DNA of 64,000 nucleotides from Natrarchaeobius halalkaliphilus (GTDB lineage Archaea; Halobacteriota; Halobacteria; Halobacteriales; Natrialbaceae): contig NZ_REFY01000002.1 in assembly GCF_003841485.1 (NCBI RefSeq), forward strand, positions 186,001-250,000, given 5' to 3'. Shown in pieces: positions 49,511-52,602 of this stretch (its first letter is position 1; every line of letters begins with the position of its first letter). The notes beneath the pieces are model-generated. The model saw only the letters and a program-made list of their open reading frames with translations, searched no databases and was not told the DNA's origin. The position numbers and the translations under genes were made by a program.

Positions 49511-50860
49511 ATGAAAAACCCATACGCAACCGCACTCGACATCCAGCGCCAGGCCTGGGAAGCGACCGCGGACCTCGCAGAGAAGACGCGGGTCTCCCCC
49601 GACCGCACCGAAACGCTCGAGAACATCGACGTCGGACCCACGCCGAGTGACGTCGTTTACGAGGAGAACAAACTCGAGTTGCTTCACTACGAATCGAGGA
49701 CGGAGACCCAACGCGACGTTCCGATCCTCATCGTCTACGCGCTGATCAACAAACCCTACATCCTCGATCTCCAGTCGGATCGATCCGTCGTCCAGACCCT
49801 GCTCGAGGCCGGCTTCGACGTCTACCTCATCGACTGGGGCGAACCGTCCAAGCTGGATCGTTCGCTCGGCCTCGAAGACTACGTGACCCGGTACATCGAC
49901 AACTGCGTCGACGTCGTCCGCGAGCGCTCCGGACGGGACGAAATCAACGTTCTCGGCTACTGTATGGGTGGTACCATGTCGGCCATGTACGCCGCGTTGT
50001 TCCCGGAGAAAGTGCGGAACCTCGCGCTGATGGCCGCCGGACTCTGCTTTGCGGGTGACGGCGGCGTCCTCGAACTCTGGGGTGCCGAGGAGTACTACGA
50101 TCCCGAGCAGGTGACCGGAGCGTTCGACAACGTTCCCGCCGAGTTTCTCGACGTCGGCTTTGCGTTGATGGACCCCGTCGCGAACAACGTCACGAAGTAC
50201 GTCCGATTCTACGATAACCTCGAGGACGAGGACTTCGTCGAGAACTTCGCCCGGATGGAGCGCTGGCTCGACGAGGGAATCGACGTCGCGGGCCTCGCCT
50301 ACGAGCAGTTCATCAGAGAGATCTATCAGAAGAACGCCCTGTTCGAGAACGAACTCCACCTCGACGGCGAGCACGTCGATCTGGCGAACGTCGACATGCC
50401 GGTCCTCCAGATCGTCGCGGAGTACGATCACCTCATTCCACCGAACGCGTCGAAGCCGTTCAACGACGCGATACCTGCGGCGGACACCGAGATCCTCGAG
50501 TTCCCGACGGGACACATCGGAATGTCCGTCTCCTCGCGCAGTCACGACGAACTCTGGCCACAGGTCTGTGACTGGTTCGAAGCTCGATCGAACGGAGATG
50601 CAACCGGCGACGAAGCGAACGGGAAACGAGACGACGAAGGTGACGTCGAACGCGAAGAGCGCGCTCAGGGCGACCTCGACGACGCCGACGATCTGACCGC
50701 GCTGAACGGCGTTGGAGACGCCTACGCGTCGACTCTCCTCGAAGCCGGCATCGAATCGTTCGACGACCTCTCGAGCGCCGACGTCGTTACACTGGCTTCG
50801 GAGACGGACATCTCGCCCAGTCGCCTCGAGGACTGGATCGAGCAGGCCGACGGGCGGTAA
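49511..50860 (+). CDS. phaC: class III PHA synthase PhaC with C-terminal helix-hairpin-helix
   Basis: 449 residues. Alpha/beta-hydrolase fold with the lipase-like box GYCMGGT (Cys151 nucleophile), Asp306 ([10 protein letters not shown]) and His335 (PTGHIGMSV) as the catalytic triad; [20 protein letters not shown] is the conserved start. The enzyme polymerises (R)-3-hydroxyacyl-CoA into PHA on granules. After the core a highly charged linker leads to a C-terminal segment of about 55 residues ([40 protein letters not shown]) that looks like helix-hairpin-helix motifs, which usually bind DNA. The stop is 21 bases from the convergent gene. Confidence 0.93.
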
Positions 50861-50881: not shown

Positions 50882-52072
50882 TCAGATTCCCTGGCTCATC
50901 AGGTAACTTCGAAGCACGTCCGCCTCTTTATTCCCGGTCGCGCCGTTGACGATCACGACCGTTTCGTCGCCGTCGAACTCGCCGCCTTCGGCCAGGTTCC
51001 AGACGGCGCTCGCGGCGACGGCCGCACTCGGAACCATCGCGACCCCCTCGTGTGTCGCAACCTGTACGCCAGCCTCGAGAACGTCCTGATCGTCCGAGGC
51101 GACCGCGCCGCCGTCGGTCTCCCGGATCGCCTCGAGCATTCGTCGGCCGGCGATTGGATCGGGGATCTCGATTCCGCCACAGATCGTGTCGGGTGTCTCC
51201 ACGGGGTCGTGCTCGTCGCGACCAGCCTCGACGGCGTCGACGATGGGCGCACAGCCCGCCGCCTGGGCGGCGTACAGCGACGGGAGTTCGTCGACCAGCC
51301 CGAGCGCCTGCAGTTCCATCGCCCCCTTGTACGCACCGAGCAGTGTGGTTCCCTGGCCGGTCGGACAACAGAGTACGTCAGGAACGTTCCACTCGAGCGC
51401 TTCGGCGATCTCGTACAGCAGCGTCTTCGCGCCCTCGTGACGGTACGGAGTTGAAACGGCCTGAAGCGAGTGCCAGTCGTCGTGTTCGGACAGCCCCTCT
51501 TCGAACGCGCCGACGGCGTCGTCGAACCGACCGCCGACGACGTTCATGTCGCCGCCGTGGACGTTCACCATCGCCTTGTTCGTAAACCCGGACCGCGAGG
51601 GGAGATAGACGTGGGACTCGAGGCCCGCTCGACCCGCGTACGCCGACACGGCCTGTCCGCCGTTGCCGGGAGAAGCGAGCGCGACGTCGCTCGCCCCGCG
51701 CCGGACCGCGGCCGTGACGGCGACCGACGCGCCACGGTCGTCGACCGACCCGGTCGGATTTCTGCCCTCGTCTTTGATCATCACTCGCTCGACGCCGAGT
51801 TCGTCGGCCAGGGACGGACACTCGACCAGTGCCGTGGCACCTTCGTCCATCGTCACCGCCGTCTCGCGAGAGAACGGTAACACCTCCTCGTATCGCCACA
51901 GCGAATCGAACGGTCGCGACTCGATCGTCGCCCGCTCGAGTGAGATCGAATCGTAGTCGTAACTCGGGTCGAGCGGTCCGCCACAGTCCGGACACCGTCG
52001 TTTCTCTTCGACCTCGTGGCTGGCCCCGCAGTCCAAACACTCGAGACCGACGAAGGCGTCAGTCGTCTCCAT
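50882..52072 (-). CDS. threonine synthase-like PLP-fold protein lacking the Schiff-base lysine
   Basis: 396 residues from the ATG at 52072 (METTDAFVGLECLDCG); the Met at 52120 is possible but adds no conserved sequence. A zinc ribbon (CLDCG and CPDCG) precedes a PLP fold II domain. The position of the PLP lysine in threonine synthases (NPTGSFKDR) reads NPTGSVDDR here, giving Asp (about residue 111) for Lys, and this is what the DNA codes. The Asn-containing loop SPGNGGQAVSAYAGRAG remains. It may be an inactive homologue with a regulatory role, or bind PLP elsewhere. It follows the lsm-rpl37e pair on the same strand with a 129-base gap. Confidence 0.8.
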   Translation of the reverse strand: METTDAFVGLECLDCGASHEVEEKRRCPDCGGPLDPSYDYDSISLERATIESRPFDSLWRYEEVLPFSRETAVTMDEGATALVECPSLADELGVERVMIKDEGRNPTGSVDDRGASVAVTAAVRRGASDVALASPGNGGQAVSAYAGRAGLESHVYLPSRSGFTNKAMVNVHGGDMNVVGGRFDDAVGAFEEGLSEHDDWHSLQAVSTPYRHEGAKTLLYEIAEALEWNVPDVLCCPTGQGTTLLGAYKGAMELQALGLVDELPSLYAAQAAGCAPIVDAVEAGRDEHDPVETPDTICGGIEIPDPIAGRRMLEAIRETDGGAVASDDQDVLEAGVQVATHEGVAMVPSAAVAASAVWNLAEGGEFDGDETVVIVNGATGNKEADVLRSYLMSQGI

Positions 52073-52201: not shown

Positions 52202-52378
52202 TCAGTTGTCGCCGGCTTTCGACTGCCACGCGTACTCGCGGCGTTTGGCGGACTTGCCGAAGCCACACGACGAGCAGACTTTCTTTTTCGTGTGGTAGGA
52301 CTTCTCGCCGCAGCGGCGACACTTGGTGTGCGTCGTCTTGTTCTTCTTTCCTTGGCTCGGGGTTCCTGCACCAGTCAT
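52202..52378 (-). CDS. rpl37e: ribosomal protein L37e
   Basis: 58 residues starting [20 protein letters not shown]. Zinc ribbon [16 protein letters not shown] (CxxC) and [17 protein letters not shown] match archaeal and eukaryotic eL37. Start and stop overlap the preceding lsm gene by 4 bases (ATGA), so translation is coupled. Component of the large ribosomal subunit, bound to 23S rRNA. Confidence 0.95.
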
Positions 52379-52602
52379 GGAGTGATCGAAACGACGTTAT
52401 CGCCGCGTATAATCGTTGTGTCTTCGACCGGCGCGTCGCCGTCTCCACCTCCGTCGGCCGAAATCGTCGCTTCTTCGAGGACGAGATTCATGTGCTGATC
52501 GTAGCCTGCGAGATCACCGACGTACTCTTCGTCGCTTTTGAGTCGTACCGTGACACGGTCACCCAGCGACGCCTCGAGGACGTCTAGCGGTCGTCCACTC
52601 AT
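52375..52602 (-). CDS. lsm: Sm-like RNA-binding protein (LSm)
   Basis: 75 residues. The two Sm motifs are readable: [20 protein letters not shown] and [16 protein letters not shown] (Sm1), then [12 protein letters not shown] (Sm2). Forms heptameric rings that bind U-rich RNA. In haloarchaea lsm regularly precedes rpl37e, as here (4-base overlap), and may act in RNA turnover and small-RNA function. Confidence 0.95.

Follow-up and report, generated by a model that had tools for sequence, protein, structure and literature searches.

The window, a 64,000-nucleotide stretch of Natrarchaeobius halalkaliphilus contig NZ_REFY01000002.1, encodes a threonine synthase-like protein whose gene lies downstream of rpl37e and lsm (Table 1). 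The reading frame contains no internal stop, and its ATG start at 52072 is supported by an N-terminal METT common to its relatives. The protein scores above the cut-offs of NCBIfam NF006050/PRK08197 “threonine synthase” (327.8 bits, cut-off 303) and Pfam PALP (208.7, cut-off 35), matches that assign it to the threonine synthase family (PALP, PLP fold type II). Its AlphaFold model (pLDDT 96.2, pTM 0.94) has threonine synthases as best PDB matches, and the Arabidopsis enzyme matches the model over its entire length (TM 0.90).

Table 1. Features of the lysine-less gene and its neighbours in the window.
Feature	Position	Strand	Basis or remark
Lysine-less threonine synthase-like gene	50882..52072	-	396 aa; ORF, profile matches, orthologues
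Zinc ribbon C12-x2-C15 ... C27-x2-C30	51983..52039	-	protein sequence
NPTGSVDDR, corresponding to the PLP-lysine motif NPTG[ST]FKDR	51734..51760	-	DNA and alignments
Asp111 codon GAC, in place of the Schiff-base lysine (K61 in T. thermophilus ThrC)	51740..51742	-	alignment
Asn137, at the place of the PLP O3' asparagine	51662..51664	-	kept in the window protein; lost in 27% of lysine-less relatives
Lys166, aligned with K116 of T. thermophilus ThrC	51575..51577	-	kept in 99% of both forms
Arg211, aligned with R160 of T. thermophilus ThrC	51440..51442	-	kept in 98-99% of both forms
PLP-phosphate loop, degenerate: GQGTT at residues 239-243	51344..51358	-	GGGVG in lysine-bearing relatives
Gly377, at the Thr position that corresponds to T317 in T. 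thermophilus ThrC	50942..50944	-	alignment
C-terminal tail DVLRSYLMSQGI, specific to the family (relatives: LRSHLM..G)	50885..50920	-	equally conserved in lysine-less and lysine-bearing members
rpl37e	52202..52378	-	upstream, same strand; neighbour of both forms in Natrialbaceae
lsm (Sm-like archaeal protein)	52375..52602	-	4-base overlap with rpl37e
PhaC-like (PHA synthase) gene	49511..50860	+	named by eye; C-terminal helix-hairpin-helix-like extension; convergent with the lysine-less gene

Residues 105-113 are encoded by AAT CCG ACC GGG TCG GTC GAC GAC CGT, and Asp111 aligns opposite the lysine of NPTGSFKDR in the solved threonine synthases 2zsj, 2d1f, and 1uim. An earlier sequence-only reading had reported the missing Schiff-base lysine, the adjacent change of Phe to Val (GTC preceding GAC), a retained zinc ribbon and a full-length gene; all four observations stand, with the four ribbon cysteines in place. 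In the alignment to Thermus thermophilus ThrC, residue 111 corresponds to K61, residues 239-243 to the phosphate loop 187-191, residue 205 to N154 and residue 377 to T317. We take these four elements to have active-site roles in that enzyme, T317 presumably as the partner of PLP N1, and K116 and R160 presumably act on the substrate side. The window protein thus departs from a threonine synthase at the lysine and also at the phosphate loop (GQGTT) and the N1-binding Thr. At position 377 lysine-bearing relatives have Thr, which aligns with the Thr of the T. thermophilus ThrC segment TGHGLKDP. The window protein has six lysines in total, five of them common to the lysine-bearing relatives; the sixth, K24, lies within the zinc ribbon and is absent from those relatives.

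Phylogeny and a common locus place the protein in a family of ThrC-like paralogues marked by a C-terminal LRS[HY]LM..G tail. The host genome has ten PALP matches, among them a canonical ThrC with an intact NPTGSFKDR (contig C1:619093-620367), and the window gene is a paralogue distinct from it. Canonical ThrC is also present in 59 of the 61 genomes of the relatives set, so that threonine synthesis is covered. The window-gene family itself was found in 57 of these 61 genomes and, class-wide, in 389 of 391 haloarchaeal genomes. It is not strictly essential: two genomes with a completeness rating of 99% lack the gene or have it below threshold. Natrarchaeobius chitinivorans AArcht7, at 78%, is the closest of the named relatives, followed by Natrialba swarupiae at 75%, both assigned to the genus of the window genome; a plasmid search returned distant relatives only, with less than 50% identity among the matches listed. 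A few genomes encode a more distant lysine-bearing paralogue with NPTNTFKDR (G003 contig C10:53946-55082, L069; also L061 and L062). Haloferax volcanii HVO_2969 is annotated as thrC3 and was recovered as a transposon auxotroph (PMC4300041); it could be either paralogue.

The 224 loci collected reduce to 196 distinct sequences, three of which are canonical ThrC outgroups. Among the remaining 193 family members, 87 have lysine at position 111 and 106 do not, a loss beyond chance. A sequencing error or single mutation, which the sequence-only reading had expected if close homologues kept the lysine, is ruled out by the occurrence of these 106 members in many species; lysine-bearing close homologues do exist, and they reflect repeated independent losses instead. 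Nor is there a conserved-Asp subfamily. Lysine-less members carry 39 different dipeptides at 110-111 (VD in the window protein; TG, IR, TT, VA, ST, LT, FR, FD, CN, VL and others elsewhere), next to an invariant D112 and R113. Asp is rare at 111, where A, T, and L are commonest, and the suggested check for a clade-wide Asp failed already within the genus, in which relatives have TG and IR. The difference between the forms is seen in the DNA codons of the several pairs compared, for example TTC AAG in Halobacterium sp. TGN-42-S1 vs. TTC AGG in H. salinarum, and TTC AAG in the Halobacteriales genome behind L152 vs. TTC GAC in its relative Haloglomus. In the metagenome-assembled genome of Halobacteriales archaeon QS_9_68_17 the motif reads NPTGTCNDR within an otherwise mostly intact PLP site, apparently the most recent loss of the set. 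Two Natrinema members (L076 and L078, including N. salsiterrestre) have NPTGTSKDR, that is, a lysine in an otherwise decayed site (TGNGG, EGAKTL, GAGTG/GTGTG). A lysine at this position is thus no proof of activity, nor does the trait change strictly in one direction; in these two proteins the lysine could have come back from Thr (ACG to AAG) or be a late retention.

In a tree of all 196 sequences, computed with active-site columns removed, at least 12 state changes are required and the lysine-less members fall into 11 groups nested among lysine-bearing ones, the two Natrinema rows with lysine in a decayed site being placed inside one group for this count. A 38-row tree requires at least 11 changes, and on it the AU test rejects a single lysine-less clade (lnL difference 562.5, p = 8e-7). 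H. salinarum (FR) and Halobacterium sp. TGN-42-S1 (FK) are sisters with support 100/99, and genus g69 of family f4 provides a further lysine-less/lysine-bearing sister case. The middle of the gene tree is partly unresolved, and the patchiness within Natrinema, Natronorubrum, and Haloterrigena could in part stem from gene exchange.

Gene-neighbour clustering, run on filtered ORFs, places rpl37e upstream on the same strand at 37 lysine-less and 25 lysine-bearing loci, all of them in Natrialbaceae, and an FAD amine-oxidase-like neighbour at 29 loci of the lysine-less and 21 of the lysine-bearing form, spread over several families, Haloferacaceae among them. This FAD-dependent gene (L044:625-2113, minus strand, and equivalents) recurs on the opposite strand across haloarchaeal families. 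Given these common neighbours, both forms are versions of one locus, and the lysine has been lost there about 11 separate times. A specific functional tie to the lsm-rpl37e pair has to be dropped: the neighbourhood was seen in Natrialbaceae only and is shared by lysine-bearing copies, and so gives no pointer to a task of the lysine-less form at the ribosome.

These results bear on an alternative in which one ancient lysine-less paralogue, followed by differential loss and horizontal replacement, would leave few independent losses to explain. Haloferacaceae genomes often contain two family members at different loci, and one 47-row group holds most lysine-less members outside Natrialbaceae, as such a history would predict. 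However, the AU test speaks against one clade, and the sister pairs, together with the common neighbours, point to losses at the same locus, so that we consider this history unlikely.

Loss of the lysine is accompanied by further decay, which is concentrated in the PLP site. F110, A135, T205, K215, M218, Y236, G240, V242, G300, G307, and A308 are altered in the lysine-less set, and A135, T205, K215, M218, G240, G307, and A308 changed in 7-10 of the 11 lysine-less groups; N137 and T377 are retained by 73% of lysine-less members. At the same time, K100, R160, K166, H172, R211, K216, Q270, and D295 and the C-terminal R388, S389, L391, M392, and G395 are ~95-100% conserved in that set (98-100% for the tail residues). 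The commonest new acidic residue, G300E, is carried by most members in just 3 of the 11 groups. The conserved fold and pocket-side residues (K100, K166, R211, Q270) could suggest that the old pocket now catalyses a new reaction without PLP. Yet positions 110-111 vary freely among the independent losses, so that no common new catalytic residue is found there, and the restricted distribution of G300E likewise offers little to such an enzyme, which we therefore regard as improbable.

That PLP is still used, by way of another lysine or without a covalent bond, was a further option, for which the conservation of K100, K166, and K216 in lysine-less members and the frequent retention of N137 and T377 might be cited. 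However, the three lysines are equally conserved beside K111 and hence already have another role, no alignment column gains lysine meaningfully in the lysine-less set, K215 and the phosphate loop degenerate alongside, and the window protein additionally lacks the Thr377 counterpart; a moved Schiff base is very unlikely. Since no lysine is gained and other PLP contacts decay, non-covalent PLP binding without catalysis is also unlikely in the window protein. Weak binding of this kind may persist in some lysine-less members, given the 73% that keep N137 and T377. Of the three interpretations offered by the sequence-only reading (PLP binding without catalysis, use of another lysine, a regulatory or structural role), the last is the one we favour, and the second finds no support.

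The median dN/dS (NG86), computed on pairs >85% identical, is 0.144 for lysine-less and 0.120 for lysine-bearing members, and each of the seven sister contrasts selected has its longer branch on the lysine-less side. Constraint related to catalysis was thus released while the remainder was kept. Zinc-ribbon cysteines are partly or wholly lost in some lysine-less members, namely L060, L063, L176, and L177 (Haloferacaceae g33) and L220, L221, L224, L226, and L230 (f4 g81/g85). Relaxed decay, in which catalysis is redundant and a young pseudogene drifts toward loss, would fit the longer branches and the missing cysteines (e.g., L060, L220), but it is very hard to reconcile with a dN/dS near the lysine-bearing value, intact ORFs, near-universal retention of the family, the conserved tail and a lysine-less state that is old in Haloferacaceae, as judged by divergence between genera.

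Lacking the catalytic lysine and kept under purifying selection, the window protein has the attributes of a pseudoenzyme, and we are fairly confident that it is a retained, non-PLP one. In the family as a whole, an enzyme has probably turned into a pseudoenzyme repeatedly, each time retained for a non-PLP function that already existed in the lysine-bearing ancestor. Under this scenario, the protein would still fold as a threonine synthase but no longer form a PLP Schiff base or catalyse via PLP. A second, non-catalytic function would predate the losses in the lysine-bearing ancestor, which would allow catalysis to be dropped without loss of the gene. The sequences themselves show that the gene was not discarded after the losses and has stayed under purifying selection. 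We lean slightly toward a fuller version, in which the ancestor was bifunctional, catalysis was its dispensable part, a ligand-sensing or partner-binding role was selected, and about a dozen conversions proceeded in parallel. What that role might be is a more tentative matter. Through the retained K166 and R211 the protein may bind a metabolite, either phosphorylated or anionic. With the family-specific C-terminal helix also kept, it could serve canonical ThrC or another protein as a sensor or as an inactive partner; a ligand sensor or ThrC partner is a possible candidate function.

Loss of the defining lysine in PLP enzymes is usually regarded as a one-off event or filtered out. Sequences without the PLP lysine were, for example, generally discarded from the B6 database (PMC2748086). 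Searches of the open-licence literature found neither a description of lysine-less haloarchaeal ThrC homologues nor recurrent lysine loss on such a scale in a fold-II archaeal family. PLP pseudoenzymes as such are already known. Here a single gene of one archaeal class has undergone the same loss ~11 times, and both versions occur in sister species such as those of Halobacterium. This natural series separates residues required for catalysis from those required for another function, and brings that other function within reach of tests in haloarchaea amenable to genetics. The pattern further suggests that many haloarchaeal “threonine synthase” annotations refer to proteins that do not make threonine. 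If our interpretation is true, the ancestor was bifunctional and catalysis was the part that could be spared.

Compared with canonical ThrC (1uim, 2zsj, 2d1f, 6cgq), the window protein is alike in fold type and architecture, with ~30-35% identity to the solved enzymes, and it shares an N-terminal cysteine ribbon with the canonical ThrC of haloarchaea. It differs in the absent Schiff-base lysine and N1 Thr, the degenerate phosphate loop and the additional C-terminal tail. Its lysine-bearing orthologues (NF006050/PRK08197; Halopiger, Haladaptatus, Halorussus) are 60-73% identical and have the same neighbours and the same tail, but keep F110-K111, A135, N137, K215, GGGVG, and T377. Among PLP-enzyme homologues kept without catalysis is the serine palmitoyltransferase subunit LCB1. 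The antizyme inhibitor AZIN1 is another (PMC2748086). Both belong to other PLP folds, are eukaryotic and have known partners, whereas the present family is of fold type II, archaeal and marked by ~11 independent losses. In trypanosomatids, a dead deoxyhypusine synthase paralogue is kept beside a live one and forms a heteromer with it (PMC3663545). The window protein would likewise be a dead copy beside a live one, and the trypanosomatid pair provides a model for an inactive-partner mechanism; deoxyhypusine synthase is, however, an unrelated, non-PLP enzyme whose heteromer was demonstrated. By analogy, a ThrC-partner role like that of the deoxyhypusine synthase paralogue or of antizyme inhibitor is plausible for the lysine-less proteins.
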